From assembly GCF_000336935.1 (NCBI RefSeq), contig NZ_AOME01000015.1, positions 23,817-87,816 of the forward strand: 64,000 nucleotides of DNA, read 5' to 3'. The DNA is from Halococcus salifodinae DSM 8989 (GTDB taxonomy: Archaea; Halobacteriota; Halobacteria; Halobacteriales; Halococcaceae). The notes under the pieces were generated by a model. It had not been told where the DNA came from and did not search any database. It saw only the letters and a list, made by a program, of their open reading frames with translations. The translations under genes were made by a program, and so were the position numbers. The stretch's first letter is position 1. Each line of letters starts with the position of its first letter. This document shows, piece by piece, positions 29,754 to 36,407 of the stretch.

Positions 29754-30260
29754 TCAGTGACTGGGGAGCGGCAGCGTTCTGACCTGTTCTTCGTGTCGTG
29801 CGTCGTGAAGCACCAGCTCCGAGATCGTCCACTCGATCGGTTCGACCTCGACGGCCGCGAGGTCGCGAGCGCGGTCCGTGGAGCCGCCGCGGGCGAGGGT
29901 CACGTGGGGAACGTACTCGTCGCCTTCGAGGTCGGGGATCGGGTCGAACGCCGCGACGAGCCGTCGATGGATGTCGTGGAGACCGGGGCTCTCGATCGCG
30001 ACGTACGCCACTGGGCCAGGCCCACGAACCGGGGTCTCGAACCAGTCGATTCCCGTCGCACGTGCCTCGACGGCTGGTGCGCCGGCGAGTGCACGGCGCA
30101 CCCGTTCGAACAGTCGATCCGGCGCGAGGTCGTCGGCCTCGAAACGCTTGCACACGAGCGTGTGGCGCTCGCGGACCCGATCGAACCCGACGAGGCGGGG
30201 GTGGAGAGTGGCGGCGAGACGTTCGATCCCGCCGGGAATCGGGACGTTGAGGCTGTACAC
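29754..30260 (-). CDS. 2'-5' RNA ligase / cyclic phosphodiesterase family (2H) protein
   Basis: A 168-residue protein of the 2H phosphoesterase family. The two catalytic HxT motifs are seen as RHTLVCK and PHVTLARGG, separated by about 85 residues. Members act on 2',3'-cyclic phosphate RNA ends or seal tRNA half-molecules in vitro; the true substrate here is open. I set the start at the GTG at 30260 (coding VYSLNVPIPGG), which gives the family N-terminus; the frame is open to 30332, but the added residues (HHSLRATTPRDRHRHH) do not look native. Confidence 0.8.
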   Translation of the reverse strand: MYSLNVPIPGGIERLAATLHPRLVGFDRVRERHTLVCKRFEADDLAPDRLFERVRRALAGAPAVEARATGIDWFETPVRGPGPVAYVAIESPGLHDIHRRLVAAFDPIPDLEGDEYVPHVTLARGGSTDRARDLAAVEVEPIEWTISELVLHDARHEEQVRTLPLPSH

Positions 30261-30352
30261 GACCACGCTCGGCGCGCCGGCGTGATGACGATGACGGTCA
30301 CGTGGCGTGGTCGCACGGAGTGAGTGGTGCAATCGTTGCCGTCCCAGAAGGG

Positions 30353-30360
30353 TTTAATAT
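30353..30360 (+). promoter_or_regulatory. TATA box before the argG leader frame
   Basis: TTTAATAT preceded by GAAGGG. Its last base is 25 nt before the ATG of the 26-codon frame at 30385, which is the normal spacing for a leaderless transcript starting on that ATG. The same GAAGGGTTTAA string stands before lysW (33435-33445). A weaker TATA-like GAATTTACG at 30534-30542 lies 25-33 nt before the argG ATG itself. Confidence 0.6.
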
Positions 30361-30384
30361 CCCCGCCGCCCCAGCTACAGGTAC

Positions 30385-30465
30385 ATGACGAGGACCCGCC
30401 GCACCGGCTCGCCCCGCGCTGCCGGCGCGTCCCTCTCGCTTCGACCGCGACGACCGGGCCGTTAG
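30385..30465 (+). CDS. Short Arg-rich frame, candidate arginine leader peptide
   Basis: A 26-codon frame between the TATA box and argG: it begins MTRTRRTGSPRAAG and ends SLRPRRPGR followed by TAG. Eight of 26 codons are arginine (AGG, CGC, CGA and CGT), with a cluster just before the stop. A hairpin CGGGCC-GTTA-GGCCCG (30455-30470) overlaps the stop codon. The arrangement is what an arginine-sensing leader peptide would need. Caution: GC-rich non-coding frames in this genome are often Arg-rich by chance, so the case rests on promoter spacing, hairpin and the arginine genes downstream. Confidence 0.4.
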   Translation: MTRTRRTGSPRAAGASLSLRPRRPGR

Positions 30466-30470
30466 GCCCG
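30455..30470 (+). promoter_or_regulatory. Hairpin over the stop codon of the Arg-rich frame
   Basis: A 6-bp stem (CGGGCC/GGCCCG) with a GTTA loop that contains part of the TAG stop. A ribosome at the last Arg codons or the stop would keep it open. A second possible hairpin (ACCCGAAGGGT, 30513-30523) lies between it and argG. Confidence 0.4.
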
Positions 30471-30566
30471 CACAAACTCATTTCTCCGACTCGTTTCGCT
30501 CCTCAGCCCCCCACCCGAAGGGTTCCGCTGGGCGAATTTACGACGACACCGAACAACGACGACACC

Positions 30567-31871
30567 ATGACACCCCCAACCGAATCCACACAGCAATCGA
30601 CCGATCGCGTCGCGCTCGCCTTCTCCGGCGGGCTCGATACCACCGTCTGCGTCCCGCTCCTGAAAGAAGAGTACGGCTTCGACGAGGTGATCGGCGTCAC
30701 CGTCGACGTCGGCCAGCCCGAAGGCGAGTTCGCCGAAGCCGAGGAAACCGCGACCGCGCTCGGTCTCGAACACCACGTGGTCGACGCGCGCGAGGCGTTC
30801 GCCGCAACCTGTTTCGACTCGGTTCGCGCGAACGCCACCTATCAGGGCTACCCCCTGGGAACGGCGCTCGCACGGCCCGTGATCGCCCAGGCGATCCTCG
30901 ACGTCGCGCTCGCTCAGGACTGTGCGGCGCTCGCCCACGGCTGCACCGGGAAGGGCAACGATCAGCTCCGGTTCGAAACCGTGTGGCGTGGCTCCGATCT
31001 CGACGTGATCGCGCCCGTCCGCGAGCTCGGACTCACCCGCGAGTTCGAGCAGGAGTACGCCGCCGAGCGCGATCTCCCCGTGGAGGGCGGCGACGGCGGC
31101 GCGTGGAGCATCGATACGAATCTCTGGAGTCGCTCGGTCGAAGGGAGCGATCTCGAAGAGCCGAGTTACGTTCCCCCAGAGGACATCTACGACTGGACCC
31201 AGCCACCCGGGAAAGAAATCGAACTGCTCGACATCGAGTTCGAAGACGGCTATCCGATCGCGCTCGATGGCGAGTCGATGGAACCGATCGCACTGATCGA
31301 GCACCTCAACGAAGTCGCGGGCGCACACGGCGTCGGCCGGACCGACGTGATGGAAGACCGGATGCTCGGGCTGAAAGTGAGGGAGAACTACGAACACCCC
31401 GCAGCGACGGTTCTCCTCAACGCCCACGAGGCGCTCGAATCGCTCGTCCTCACCAAAGAAGAGCGGAGTTTCAAGAAACAGATCGATCACGAGTGGGCAG
31501 AGAAAGCCTACGAGGGACTGCTCGCCGCGCCGCTGGTCGACGCCTTGGAAGGGTTCATCGCGTCGACCCAGGAGCGCGTCACCGGCACCGTCACCGTGAA
31601 ACTCGAAGGTGGTCAGGCCCGCCCGGTCGGTCGCGAGAGCGAGTACGGCGTGTACTCCGCGTCGGCAGCCTCGTTCAACACCGCGGACGTCGGCGGCGGA
31701 ATCGAGCAGGCCGACGCCACGGGCGTCGCGAAGTACCACGGCTTCCAATCGCGCCTCGCGGGAAGCGTCATCGACGACGCGAACGCGACGGCAGAAGCGG
31801 TCGCCGACGGCGGGACGACGGCCGAGAGCGAGAACGGAGCGACGGCGGACGACGAAAACGGAGACGAGTGA
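30567..31871 (+). CDS. argG: Argininosuccinate synthase
   Basis: A 434-residue enzyme that joins citrulline and aspartate with ATP, the seventh step of arginine synthesis. The ATP loop is ALAFSGGLDTTVC at about 17-28; AHGCTGKGNDQLRFE, SIDTNLWSRSVEG and SPTRFAP-like family segments (EPSYVPPEDIYDWT) are present. The last 30 residues are an acidic halophilic tail. The frame is open upstream to 30324, but the ATG at 30567 gives the normal N-terminus. One base separates it from argH. Confidence 0.96.
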   Translation: MTPPTESTQQSTDRVALAFSGGLDTTVCVPLLKEEYGFDEVIGVTVDVGQPEGEFAEAEETATALGLEHHVVDAREAFAATCFDSVRANATYQGYPLGTALARPVIAQAILDVALAQDCAALAHGCTGKGNDQLRFETVWRGSDLDVIAPVRELGLTREFEQEYAAERDLPVEGGDGGAWSIDTNLWSRSVEGSDLEEPSYVPPEDIYDWTQPPGKEIELLDIEFEDGYPIALDGESMEPIALIEHLNEVAGAHGVGRTDVMEDRMLGLKVRENYEHPAATVLLNAHEALESLVLTKEERSFKKQIDHEWAEKAYEGLLAAPLVDALEGFIASTQERVTGTVTVKLEGGQARPVGRESEYGVYSASAASFNTADVGGGIEQADATGVAKYHGFQSRLAGSVIDDANATAEAVADGGTTAESENGATADDENGDE

Positions 31872-31872
31872 G

Positions 31873-33318
31873 ATGAACGGAGAGGAGAGCGACGTGGTCC
31901 GGCGCGATCGGTTCAGCGGCGGCCCCGCCCGCGCGTTCCTCTCCTCGATGGATCACGACGAGCGGCTCTTTGAACCCGATCTCGCGGTCGACCGCGCCCA
32001 CGTGGTGATGCTCGCCGAACAGGGCATCATCGACGAGGCGAGCGCAGGCGCGATCCTCGATGGGCTCGCCGACGTCGAAGCGACGGACTACGACGCGCTC
32101 GACGGCGAGGACGTCCACGCCGCGATCGAAACCGCGGTGATCGAGCGTGTCGGCGAGGCGGGCGGCCGGATGCACACCGCCCGGAGTCGGAACGACGAGG
32201 TGGCGACGTGCATCCGGTATCGGCTGCGCGAGGAGCTGCTCGACGCCATCGACGCGACGCTCGTGCTCCGCGAGGCGCTCGTCGAGGCGGCACGCGAGCA
32301 CGTCGAGACGCTGATGCCTGGCTACACGCACCGCCAGGCAGCCCAGCCGACCACCGTTGCACACTTCCTGTGCTCGTACGCCCAAGCGCTCGAACGCGAC
32401 ACGGATCGGTTGCTCGCGGCCTACGACCGGACGAACCGCTCGCCGCTCGGTGCGGCGGCCTTTGCGGGCACGCCGTTCGACATCGATCGCGAGCGGACCG
32501 CCGACCTGCTGGGGTTCGATTCCGTACTCAACAACTCGATGGACGCGGTCTCGACCCGAGATTTCCTCGTCGAGGCGGCGAGCGCGTTGTCAGCTTGCTC
32601 ACTCACGCTCTCGGGGCTTGCGACCGACCTGATCGAGTTCGCGGCGGACGAGTATGTGGAAATTCACGACGACTACGCCTCGACCTCTTCGATCATGCCC
32701 CAGAAGAAAAACCCCGATACGCTCGAACTCGTCCGCGCGGCGGCCGGGAACGCGAGCGCGGGACTGAACGGCCTCCTGACCACGCTGAAGGGGCTGCCCC
32801 GGGCGTACAACCGCGACCTCCAGGAGGCGACGCCCCACGCGTGGGCCGCCGTCGATGCGGTCGCCCCTGCAACCGAGGTGGCCGCGGGCGCGGTCGCGAC
32901 CGCGACGTGGAACGAGGACGCGCTCGACGCGGCGGCCGGCGACGGGTTTGCAACTGCGACCGGCGTCGCCGACCTGCTCGCGGCCAATGGAGTACCGTTC
33001 CGCACGGCCCACGAAATTTTGGCCCAGGCTGCCGAAAACGACGGAGACTACGCCGCCATCGAAGCGGCCGCCGACGCGGCACTCGACGAACCGCTCTCGG
33101 CGGTCGTCGAGCGCGAGGCGATCGAAGACGCGCTCGATCCCGCGGCGAGCGTGGCGAGCCGCGACTCGGTCGGCGGTCCCGCACCCGAGGCAGTCGCGGC
33201 GGCGCTCGACGAGGCGTGGGCGAAAATCGAGGACGATACCGACCGCCACGACGAGCGGCGCGATCGGCTCGACGCCGCCGCCGCAGTGCTCGAACGGGAG
33301 GTGAGTCAGTATCGTTGA
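31873..33318 (+). CDS. argH: Argininosuccinate lyase
   Basis: A 481-residue enzyme of the fumarase/aspartase superfamily that splits argininosuccinate into arginine and fumarate. The signature SSIMPQKKNPD is at 272-282, HTARSRNDEV at 101-110 and PGYTHRQAAQPTT at 149-161, all intact. It follows argG after a single base and ends the first arginine transcript unit; a 152-base gap with a new promoter separates it from lysW. Confidence 0.96.
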   Translation: MNGEESDVVRRDRFSGGPARAFLSSMDHDERLFEPDLAVDRAHVVMLAEQGIIDEASAGAILDGLADVEATDYDALDGEDVHAAIETAVIERVGEAGGRMHTARSRNDEVATCIRYRLREELLDAIDATLVLREALVEAAREHVETLMPGYTHRQAAQPTTVAHFLCSYAQALERDTDRLLAAYDRTNRSPLGAAAFAGTPFDIDRERTADLLGFDSVLNNSMDAVSTRDFLVEAASALSACSLTLSGLATDLIEFAADEYVEIHDDYASTSSIMPQKKNPDTLELVRAAAGNASAGLNGLLTTLKGLPRAYNRDLQEATPHAWAAVDAVAPATEVAAGAVATATWNEDALDAAAGDGFATATGVADLLAANGVPFRTAHEILAQAAENDGDYAAIEAAADAALDEPLSAVVEREAIEDALDPAASVASRDSVGGPAPEAVAAALDEAWAKIEDDTDRHDERRDRLDAAAAVLEREVSQYR

Positions 33319-33434
33319 GCGACCGCCCCCGCGAGGGGGACGAATTCATCTCGTCGGCGACGACGAAACGCTCGAACTGCCCGATTTCGACCCCGAGAGG
33401 CCACAGTACGTTTTGTAAAATATCAAACAAGTTC

Positions 33435-33447
33435 GAAGGGTTTAAGC
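33435..33447 (+). promoter_or_regulatory. Promoter of the lysW-arg operon
   Basis: GAAGGGTTTAAGC, with the TATA part TTTAAG ending about 25 nt before the lysW ATG at 33471, so the transcript is probably leaderless. It is the same string (GAAGGGTTTAA) as before the argG leader. Just upstream is an AT-rich GTTTTGTAAAATATCAAAC (33413-33431) that could hold a regulator site. Confidence 0.55.
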
Positions 33448-33470
33448 GGATACACGGGTGAGGGTGGCAC

Positions 33471-33635
33471 ATGGCGAACTGTCCCGAATGCGGGGGCGAG
33501 GTGTCCCTGCACGACGACGCAGAAGTCGGAGAGATCATCGACTGTGGAACCTGCGGAGCCGAGCTCGAAGTCATCGACACCACCCCACCGGTCCTCGAGA
33601 CGGCCCCCGAGCTCGAAGAGGACTGGGGGGAGTAA
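33471..33635 (+). CDS. lysW: LysW/ArgW amino-group carrier protein
   Basis: A 54-residue carrier. It has a zinc ribbon with two CxxC pairs (CPEC at 4-7, CGTC at 25-28) and the diagnostic C-terminal EDWGE, whose last Glu is the attachment point for the glutamate (or aminoadipate) being modified. The carrier blocks the alpha-amino group while ArgX, ArgC, ArgB, ArgD and the hydrolase act. Too short to be caught by ordinary ORF cut-offs. It leads the operon and is followed by argX after two bases. Confidence 0.93.
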   Translation: MANCPECGGEVSLHDDAEVGEIIDCGTCGAELEVIDTTPPVLETAPELEEDWGE

Positions 33636-33637
33636 GA

Positions 33638-34528
33638 GTGGAAATAGGCGTCCTCTACTCTCGGATCCGTCACGACGAGAAGCTCCTGCTCGGTGAGCTC
33701 CGGGAGCGCGGCCACGAGGTGACGAAGATCGACGTCCGCGACCAGCGCTTCGATCTCACCGAGCCGCCAGCGGCGTTCGCCGACGTGGATCTCGTCGTGG
33801 ATCGGTGTCTCGCAACCAGCCGGAGCCGCTATGCGACCCGCTTCCTCGCCGCGTACGGCATCCCGGTCGTGAACGATCCGGACACTGCGGCGGTGTGTGC
33901 GGACAAGGCCGAGTGCAGCCTCGCGCTCGCGGGGGCCGGCGTGCCGACGCCCCGGACGGAGGTCGCCTTCACGAAGGAGAGCGCGATGGAATCGATCGAG
34001 CGGTTCGGGTATCCCTGTGTGGTGAAACCCGTGATCGGCTCGTGGGGGCGGCTGCTGGCGAAGATCGACTCCCGGAGCGCGGCGGAAGCGATCTTGGAAC
34101 ACAAGTCGACCCTCGGGCACTACGAGCACAAGGTGTTCTACGTCCAGGAGTTCGTCGCGAAGCCCGGCCGCGACATCCGGGTCGTGGCTACTGACGGCGA
34201 GCCCGTGGGAGCGATGGTGCGCTCGTCGGACCACTGGCTCACCAACGCGGCGAAAGGGGCCGACACCGAGGAGTTCGACCTCGATAGCGAGGCCCGCGAG
34301 CTCGTCGCGCGCGCGAGCGACGCCGTGGGTGGCGGTCTCTTGGGAGTCGACCTGATGGAGACCGACGATCCCGACGCCGAACACTCCTACACCGTCCACG
34401 AGGTGAACCACACGGTCGAATTCAAGGCACTCGACGGCGTCGCCAACGGCGACGTACCAGCGAAGGTGGTCGACTGGCTCGAAGAGAAAGCGGAGACCAC
34501 AAACGAAACTGCGGTCGCGGCACCATGA
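33638..34528 (+). CDS. argX: Glutamate-LysW ligase (ATP-grasp)
   Basis: A 296-residue RimK-like ATP-grasp ligase that attaches the alpha-amino group of glutamate to the C-terminal Glu of LysW, the first committed step of this arginine route. Start is GTG at 33638 (EIGVLYSRIRHDEK), supported by a strong Shine-Dalgarno-like GGGGGGAG 6-13 nt upstream; an earlier in-frame start would run through lysW. ATP-grasp features: CVVKPVIGSWGRLLAKI, VFYVQEFVAKPGRDIRVV and the metal-binding HEVNHTVEFK near the end. It could also take aminoadipate, as in Sulfolobus LysX. Confidence 0.9.
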   Translation: MEIGVLYSRIRHDEKLLLGELRERGHEVTKIDVRDQRFDLTEPPAAFADVDLVVDRCLATSRSRYATRFLAAYGIPVVNDPDTAAVCADKAECSLALAGAGVPTPRTEVAFTKESAMESIERFGYPCVVKPVIGSWGRLLAKIDSRSAAEAILEHKSTLGHYEHKVFYVQEFVAKPGRDIRVVATDGEPVGAMVRSSDHWLTNAAKGADTEEFDLDSEARELVARASDAVGGGLLGVDLMETDDPDAEHSYTVHEVNHTVEFKALDGVANGDVPAKVVDWLEEKAETTNETAVAAP

Positions 34529-35562
34529 CCCACACCGCGTCGGTCGTCGGCGCGAGCGGGTTCACCGGCGGCGAACTCCTCCGGCTCCTGCGGGGCCATC
34601 CCGAGTTCGAGATCGTCCAGGCCACCAGCCGCGAGTACGCGAACAAGACCGTGGGATCGGTCCACCCCAACCATCGGGAGCTCGATCTGCGGTTCAGCGA
34701 GCCCAGCGATCTCGACGAGGTGGACGTGCTGTTCGCCGCGACGCCCCACGGCGTGTCGATGGAGCACATCGACGCGTTTCGGGACGCGGCGGACACGATC
34801 GTCGATCTCTCGGCGGACTTCCGACTCGACAGTGAGGAACAGTACGACGAGTGGTACGACGGCCACAGCCGGCCTGAACTGCTCGACGAGTCGACGTACG
34901 CACTCCCCGAACGCCACCGCGACGAACTCACGGGTGCGTCGCTGATCGCGGCGGGCGGCTGCAACGCGACCGCCGCCATCCTCGGGCTCGGTCCGCTGTT
35001 CGACAGCGGGACCCTCGCGGGTGACGAGCGGATCGTGGTCGACGTGAAAGTCGGTTCGTCGGAGGGTGGAGCAGGCGGTGGAAAGGCGTCTTCCCACGCC
35101 GAGCGCTCGGGGGTCGTGCGGCCCTACGCCCCAACGGGCCACCGCCACGAGGCCGAGATCGAGCAGGAGTTCGGCTGCGAGACGGCGTTTTCGGCCCACG
35201 CGGTCGACATGATCCGCGGCGCGGCCGCGACCTGTCACGTCTTCCCGAGCGAGCCGGTGTCGACGGGCGACCTCTGGAGTGCCTACCGCGAGGCTTACGA
35301 CGACGAGCCGTTCGTCCGCCTCGTGGCCGGTGGTTCGGGCGTGTATCGCTACCCCGAACCGAAGGCGGTCGCAGGGTCGAACTACGCCGAGGTCGGGTTC
35401 GAACTCGATTCGAATAATGAGAGGATCGTGGTGTTCGCCGCGATCGACAACATGATGAAGGGATCGGCGGGCCAGGCGATCCACGCCGCGAACGTCGCCC
35501 GCGGGTTCGACGAGCGCGCAGGGCTCGACTTTCAGGGACTCCATCCAGTGGGGGCACCCTGA
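34525..35562 (+). CDS. argC: LysW-gamma-glutamyl-phosphate reductase (ArgC/LysY)
   Basis: A 345-residue NADPH-dependent reductase that turns LysW-glutamyl phosphate into the semialdehyde. The N-terminal Rossmann motif is VVGASGFTGGELLRLL; the catalytic Cys is C146 in AAGGCNATAA; the family segment HRHEAEIEQEF contains the active-site His region. ATGA overlap with argX; two bases before argB. In a LysW cluster this enzyme acts on the carrier-bound form, not on free N-acetylglutamyl phosphate. Confidence 0.92.
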   Translation: MTHTASVVGASGFTGGELLRLLRGHPEFEIVQATSREYANKTVGSVHPNHRELDLRFSEPSDLDEVDVLFAATPHGVSMEHIDAFRDAADTIVDLSADFRLDSEEQYDEWYDGHSRPELLDESTYALPERHRDELTGASLIAAGGCNATAAILGLGPLFDSGTLAGDERIVVDVKVGSSEGGAGGGKASSHAERSGVVRPYAPTGHRHEAEIEQEFGCETAFSAHAVDMIRGAAATCHVFPSEPVSTGDLWSAYREAYDDEPFVRLVAGGSGVYRYPEPKAVAGSNYAEVGFELDSNNERIVVFAAIDNMMKGSAGQAIHAANVARGFDERAGLDFQGLHPVGAP

Positions 35563-35564
35563 CC

Positions 35565-36407
35565 ATGACGACGGTCGTGAAGGTCGGCGGCGCGCGGGCG
35601 GTCGATCCAGAGGGAACGATCGAAGACGTCGCGGCGCTCACAAGAGAGGGCGAGGGCTGTGTGGTCGTCCACGGTGGGTCGACGGCGGTCGACGAGACGC
35701 TCGAACGGTTGGGCGAAGAGCCGGAGTACGTCGAGACGCCCCAGGGCGTCGTCGGACGATTCACCGACGAGCGCACGATGGAGACGTTCGAGATGGTCCT
35801 GCCAGGCAAACTCAACACCGACCTCACGGCATCGCTTCGGAAGGCCGGTGTGGACGCCGTGGGACTGTCGGGCGTCGATGGCGGGCTCCTGACCGGCCCC
35901 CGGAAATCGGCCGTCAAGGTCGTCGAGAACGGCAAGACGAAGATCCGCCGGGGCGAGCACTCGGGGAAAATCACGTCGGTGAACGCCGATCTCCTCACCG
36001 GGTTGCTCGACGACGGGTACACGCCCGTCGTCACGGTCCCGATGCTGGCCGACGATGGCACCCCCGTGAACGCCGACGCCGACCGGGCGGCCGCAGCGGT
36101 CGCCGGCGCGCTCGGCGCGACGCTGGTGGTGCTGACCGACGTACCAGGCGTGCTCGCCGATCCCGACGATCCCGAAACGCTGATCGGACAGGCGAAAACG
36201 CCTGACGAGCTCGCACGGGTGGAGTCGGCCGCCGAGGGGTTCATGCGCAAGAAGGTGATGGCGGCGACGGAGGCGCTCGACGGCGGTGCGGCGTCGGTCG
36301 TCGTGGCCGATGCGAACGCCGACGATCCCGTGCTCGCGGCGCTCGACGGCGACGGGACGCACTTCGCGCCAGCAGCGATCGAAGCCGAAGCGGAGGTCGA
36401 CGCATGA
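35565..36407 (+). CDS. argB: LysW-glutamate kinase (ArgB/LysZ)
   Basis: A 280-residue amino-acid kinase that phosphorylates the side-chain carboxyl of carrier-bound glutamate. Features: TTVVKVGGARAVDPEG at the start, VVVHGGSTAVDETL, and the nucleotide-binding VVLTDVPGVLADPDDPETL. The C-terminal GGMxxK-like segment reads RVESAAEGFMRKKVMAATEALDGG. Length and motifs fit the acetylglutamate-kinase family. Overlaps argD by ATGA. Confidence 0.92.
   Translation: MTTVVKVGGARAVDPEGTIEDVAALTREGEGCVVVHGGSTAVDETLERLGEEPEYVETPQGVVGRFTDERTMETFEMVLPGKLNTDLTASLRKAGVDAVGLSGVDGGLLTGPRKSAVKVVENGKTKIRRGEHSGKITSVNADLLTGLLDDGYTPVVTVPMLADDGTPVNADADRAAAAVAGALGATLVVLTDVPGVLADPDDPETLIGQAKTPDELARVESAAEGFMRKKVMAATEALDGGAASVVVADANADDPVLAALDGDGTHFAPAAIEAEAEVDA

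Follow-up and report, generated by a model that had tools for sequence, protein, structure and literature searches.

In the trp, his, ilv, leu, thr and phe attenuators of E. coli, the first gene is preceded by a short leader frame in which codons for the amino acid that the pathway makes are clustered; these sensor codons are rare, and a hairpin can be blocked by a ribosome that stalls on them. The ilvBNC leader of Corynebacterium is reported to contain a conserved uORF (PMC10272879) and a three-hairpin attenuator (PMC11857589). As of 2021, transcription attenuation and antitermination were unknown in archaea (PMC8448881). Here we describe a leader before the arginine gene argG, identified in the window (the whole 64,000-nucleotide stretch of DNA analysed) and compared across related genomes, which resembles the E. 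coli systems in its short leader frame, its rare codons for the pathway's amino acid and a hairpin that a stalled ribosome would block. It differs from them in being archaeal, in its expected leaderless mRNA, and in having its stop codon inside the hairpin loop; in addition, no U-tract terminator or antiterminator was found, and a G-free tract is present instead. Together with a second leader, found before ilvB, it suggests that most salt-loving archaea sense amino-acid supply through the ribosome, in the bacterial style. Searches of openly available literature brought up no account of such a leader before haloarchaeal argG or ilvB, although a report that escaped notice, or footprints in supplementary data, may exist; the main text of a 2025 Haloferax Ribo-seq paper makes no mention of argG, arginine, uORFs or leader peptides.

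The leader lies before argG, which heads a run of arginine genes, and profile searches confirmed the identities of argG, argH, argX, argC and argB. Besides the argG matches listed in Table 1, the NCBIfam profiles above cut-off were TIGR00838 for argH, TIGR02144 (LysX_arch) for argX, TIGR01850 for argC and NF010661 (acetylglutamate/acetylaminoadipate kinase) for argB. A preliminary description of this DNA had proposed a 26-codon frame with eight Arg codons, four of them among the last seven, a 6-bp hairpin overlapping its stop codon, and argG about 100 nt beyond; each of these elements is present in the sequence. The frame ends in RPRRPGR-stop, and the distance from the first T of TTTAATA to its ATG is 32 nt. 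The hairpin pairs CGGGCC (30455–30460) with GGCCCG (30465–30470) around the loop GTTA (30461–30464); the T and A of the stop codon are in the loop, and its G is the first base of the 3′ arm. The leader stop and the argG ATG are 101 nt apart. Divergent from the leader promoter is a gene of the 2′-5′ RNA ligase superfamily (PF13563; window 29754–30332, minus strand).

Table 1. Positions of features at the argG leader locus, in window coordinates.
Feature	Position	Strand	Remarks
TATA box TTTAATA of leader promoter	30353–30359	+	invariant, 10/10 genomes of the genus
Leader-peptide frame MTRTRRTGSPRAAGASLSLRPRRPGR-stop, 26 codons	30385–30465	+	leaderless mRNA expected
Arg-rich tail CGA CCG CGA CGA CCG GGC CGT, presumed sensor codons	30442–30462	+	
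Hairpin CGGGCC-GTTA-GGCCCG holding leader stop TAG (30463–30465)	30455–30470	+	
G-free tract CACAAACTCATTTCTCC, directly 3′ of hairpin	30471–30487	+	
Second, weaker stem-loop CAGC/GCTG around ACCC-GAA-GGGT	30493–30537	+	kept in the genus, not in the order
TATA-like AATTTA before argG	30535–30540	+	not conserved in the genus
argG, argininosuccinate synthase, gene behind leader	30567–31871	+	NCBIfam NF010392 and TIGR00032 above cut-off
argH, argX (LysX-type ligase), argC, argB after argG, same orientation	31873–36407	+	

In an alignment of ten genomes of the genus, the TATA box, ATG, tail, hairpin arms and TAG are invariant, and the loop bases vary. The Arg tail is identical from CGA to GGC in all ten, with variation in the last codon, just before TAG. 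Alignment gaps are of 3 nt or multiples of 3 inside the leader frame, and not so after the stop. A 29-nt motif covering the tail and hairpin, CGACCGCGACGACCGGGCC-NN-TAGGCCCG, is found before argG with zero mismatches in 10/10 genomes; elsewhere in these genomes it appears only at three mismatches, and in the window's own genome it does not recur.

The preliminary description had also held against the leader that argG has its own TATA-like site. In the window, AATTTA is indeed at a usable distance from argG; however, the bases aligned to it differ in the nine other genomes of the genus, where they mostly form no TATA box, whereas the TTTAATA of the leader never changes. Because the TATA-like site is not conserved in relatives, the conserved promoter in the genus is that of the leader, and judged from this alignment AATTTA is probably not the main argG promoter here. 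We therefore rejected argG's own promoter as an explanation within the genus; such promoters are present in other families, as described below.

We compared argG upstream regions in 130 genomes. By a strict detector, 113 of them have a frame with an Arg tail and a hairpin over the stop, and several of the 17 misses keep the elements in modified form, such as a tail with two Arg (G030), a stop that falls immediately past the hairpin (G024), or a sense codon in place of the stop (G123). The leader occurs, among others, in Haloferax marisrubri (L022) and Haloarcula amylolytica (L026). Family f3 has it as well, as does f15 in a form with altered tails; no leader was found in f2, a family of small genomes, nor in f9 and f11, which have a divergent argG. 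Second argG copies elsewhere in the genome had no leader (L359, L360, L361, L023; after a nucleotidyltransferase-like frame), and non-haloarchaeal argG regions gave just three detector matches, all unrelated-looking. A search of window positions 30250–30700 against Rfam, with E up to 10, returned no family other than one chance-level match far below cut-off; at curated thresholds, there was no match in L265 (the ilvB leader of the window's own genome, described below), L022 or L026. The alignment across haloarchaea that had been suggested as a check thus shows frame, Arg codons and hairpin conserved across the genus and most of the order.

In order to avoid selecting on the features that were then counted, we also chose frames by spacing alone, taking an ATG 29–35 nt after a TATA box and using nothing else. 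This gave a frame in 112 of the 130 genomes, and the last eight residues of these frames contained a mean of 3.63 Arg, compared with 1.15 per eight in the remainder of the frames. Among the leaders of the order, 100/111 have a TATA-type box starting 30–35 nt before the start codon. As the MAFFT alignment of the hairpin placed gaps outside the loop, we assessed pairing with a stem search in which 3′ arms were swapped between genera, using one genome per genus. The search was run first on sequences partly selected for the hairpin and then on the frames chosen by TATA spacing only. The stop was within a stem of at least 5 bp in 31 of 38 genera, compared with 18.3 (maximum 25 in 2000 trials) for swapped arms, a comparison that overstates independence since the genera are related. 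Complementary arm forms among the genera include GGGCC/GGCCC, GGGGTC/GACCCC, GGGGC/GCCCC, GGCCC/GGGCC, CGGCC/GGCCG and CGGGCTC/GAGCCCG.

An Arg-rich frame and a GC hairpin could arise by accident in a GC-rich genome, where Arg is common in such frames, and the leader as a whole folds no more stably than shuffled sequences (z −0.21). The caveat in the preliminary description that Arg is abundant in any GC-rich frame does not account for the tails, since the frames picked by spacing were picked blind to Arg. We further scanned both strands of the window for ATG frames of 15–60 codons; among the 314 in these 64 kb, the argG leader alone combined three or more Arg in the last eight residues, a stem of 5 bp or longer spanning the stop, and a TATA box. 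These data confirm that the Arg-tailed frame with a stop hairpin before argG is genuine and far above chance, and the probability of coincidence, already refuted by the conservation and by the pathway match described below, is negligible.

The codons of the tail are unusual as well. CGA accounts for 65% of the Arg codons in argG-leader tails, compared with 10% in seven genes of the window. The first base of tail Arg codons is C in approximately 90% of genomes, and the third base is A in 56–69%, with G, C and T also found; the amino acid is held more strictly than the codon itself, although CGA is favored. Sensor codons end 0–6 nt upstream of the 5′ arm of the hairpin, a placement that would let a ribosome on these codons block the hairpin.

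Along with ilvB, we examined the regions before trpC, hisG and carA in the genus as controls, and leuA and trpE were added. In the ilvB leader, a TATA box and an ATG are followed by a frame whose end reads LIIVGV, SIIVGA or a close variant, with the stop codon held in GTAGGGG-loop-CCCCTAC. A looser count places this leader in about 50 of 59 genomes. A single detector, with a TATA box required, was then applied to all gene sets. Arg leaders preceded argG in 92/130 genomes and ilvB in 0/59; for Ile/Leu/Val leaders, the counts were 42/59 at ilvB and 4/130 at argG. The same detector gave no leader in the 56 regions before trpC, trpE, hisG, carA and two leuA sets. In ilvB tails, ATT is used for 81% of Ile, compared with 2.7% in genes, and GTA for 54% of Val, compared with 2.6% in genes, although the hairpin arm itself includes GTA, whose frequency is thus not purely codon choice. 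Similar to the Corynebacterium ilvBNC leader, the haloarchaeal one places a leader frame with branched-chain codons before ilvB; in contrast, the former is bacterial and described as a multi-hairpin attenuator.

The ilvB leader in the window's own genome (L265, minus strand) and its counterparts at L262–L348 are a finding in themselves. As a separate observation, the start region of a second leuA-like gene carries an inverted repeat, near-invariant and of the type TTCGGGGG-CTC-CCCCGAA, which overlaps an out-of-frame short frame that is not Leu-rich (L363–L368, L373, L377, L378, L380 and L381, just before the leuA-type match).

The match of the argG and ilvB leaders to their pathways makes amino-acid sensing the best reading. 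Two alternatives were weighed against it. The first is that the conserved product is a functional Arg-rich microprotein acting in trans, for which the conserved start, frame and basic tail would be expected. However, the peptide body is poorly conserved between families and its length ranges from 23 to more than 50 codons, yet the tail, the rare codons and the stop hairpin are kept, and the tail of the ilvB leader is unrelated although its architecture is the same; we consider a microprotein exceedingly unlikely. The second is that the palindrome CGGGCC-N4-GGCCCG is a DNA operator, to which a regulator binds immediately 3′ of the leader start, with the frame incidental. Haloarchaeal regulators do bind inverted repeats with short spacers, and the hairpin is, as DNA, an inverted repeat of 5–7 bp with a short spacer. 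Nonetheless, the frame, start spacing, Arg tail and in-frame loop stop (TAG or TGA) are kept together across the order; the spacer varies from 3 to 8 and the arms change complementarily, unlike a single operator; and the ilvB element has other arms together with its own cognate codons. An operator is very unlikely to explain the element. By sequence comparison, the frame, the cognate rare codons, the hairpin and the G-free tract are conserved and matched to pathway, and we regard it as quite probable that the argG leader functions as a cis-acting, ribosome-mediated arginine sensor with a translated leader peptide.

In the 113 argG leaders, G falls to 1–8% over approximately 17 nt past the hairpin, and the run free of G reaches 14 nt or more in 93 of 112. 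In ilvB leaders, G is 0–9% over approximately 12 nt after the first base past the hairpin. The argG tract is equally rich in C and in U, and no other feature general to the leaders emerged. A second hairpin was considered as a general feature and rejected, since it occurs only here and in certain other groups, with family means of z ranging from 0.5 to −1.1.

The preliminary description had interpreted the locus as a ribosome-mediated arginine attenuator. Much of this interpretation is supported, by the pathway-matched leader frame, the conserved stop hairpin and the ilvB parallel; the intrinsic terminator and competing antiterminator of the bacterial class were not found. No terminator-like site consisting of a hairpin and U tract was detected before argG in the window region. 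In the 55 genomes without a second promoter, the longest T run was no longer than expected by chance (2.7, versus 2.5 in shuffles), and base pairing between the 3′ arm and the sequence beyond it, as in an antiterminator, likewise did not exceed chance (4.45 bp, versus 4.21 bp in shuffles). Since the terminator and antiterminator were sought in this way without success, we do not file the argG leader in the bacterial attenuator class; that it is an attenuator in the strict bacterial sense is something we still infer.

The geometry suggests how the proposed sensor would work. From the spacing of TATA box and ATG, a leaderless mRNA would start at or just before 30385 and be translated at once. 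With ample charged Arg-tRNA, the ribosome would pass the rare CGA codons, terminate and depart, after which the stop hairpin would fold beside the exposed G-free tract and expression of argG and the later genes would be lowered. With charged Arg-tRNA scarce, the ribosome would wait at 30442–30453 with its footprint over the 5′ arm. The footprint of a ribosome extends 12–15 nt downstream, so a ribosome with CGA in its A site would cover this arm. The hairpin would then be blocked and the arginine genes expressed.

For the output of the arginine sensor, we favor premature transcription termination, possibly through the archaeal factor FttA/aCPSF1. E. coli tnaC, which is Rho-dependent, offers a likeness, as in both cases the position of the ribosome would set the exposure of a G-poor stretch after the stop to a termination factor. 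The cue differs: tnaC senses a surplus of tryptophan at its stop codon, and the haloarchaeal cue would be shortage at sense codons. To our knowledge, archaea lack Rho. FttA/aCPSF1 is suggested because coupled ribosomes are hypothesised to exclude it (PMC11616081), which makes FttA-dependent termination a candidate for the leader output. On the other hand, FttA prefers U-rich RNA (PMC11616081), so its role at the leaders is a guess. Taken as a whole, we see about an even chance that these leaders form a haloarchaeal set of ribosome-mediated attenuators, with leaderless leader peptides, rare cognate codons, a stop-holding hairpin, and transcription ending at a G-free tract without a U-tract terminator or Rho. 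Such a set would be the first known in archaea, with an output unlike the bacterial one.

If true, leader-peptide amino-acid sensing would extend beyond bacteria, through common origin or convergence. The two pathway-matched leaders raise the question of whether the position of an archaeal ribosome can decide the fate of the gene ahead, and since they are kept across most of the class, including the genetically tractable Haloferax, it is testable with reporters.

The same sensor might instead act translationally or post-transcriptionally, altering argG translation (through re-initiation or access to the start) or mRNA lifetime, with no termination involved. The failure to find a terminator or antiterminator fits this possibility, as does the expectation that leader and argG share one transcript in families without a second promoter. 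However, the 70–150 nt from leader stop to argG is long for re-initiation, and pairing of the hairpin with the argG start region was not beyond chance. Moreover, in families that have a second promoter, a leaderless argG mRNA made from it would escape such control. We regard a purely translational or post-transcriptional output as possible, though unlikely.

The distribution of second promoters also sets the reach of the leader itself. No TATA box is found before argG in families f1, f4, f12 and f17, the group that includes the window, so argG should depend on the leader promoter there. In f5, f6, f7, f10 and f14, nearly all genomes have a TATA box at leaderless distance before argG, behind the leader; argG has its own promoter in these families, and the leader cannot be the sole control. 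Many genomes of these same five families also carry a palindrome-like sequence, TTAG(A/C)G-N4-CTCTAA, approximately 75 nt upstream of argG, which is perfect in L183 and L195 and is a likely regulator binding site.
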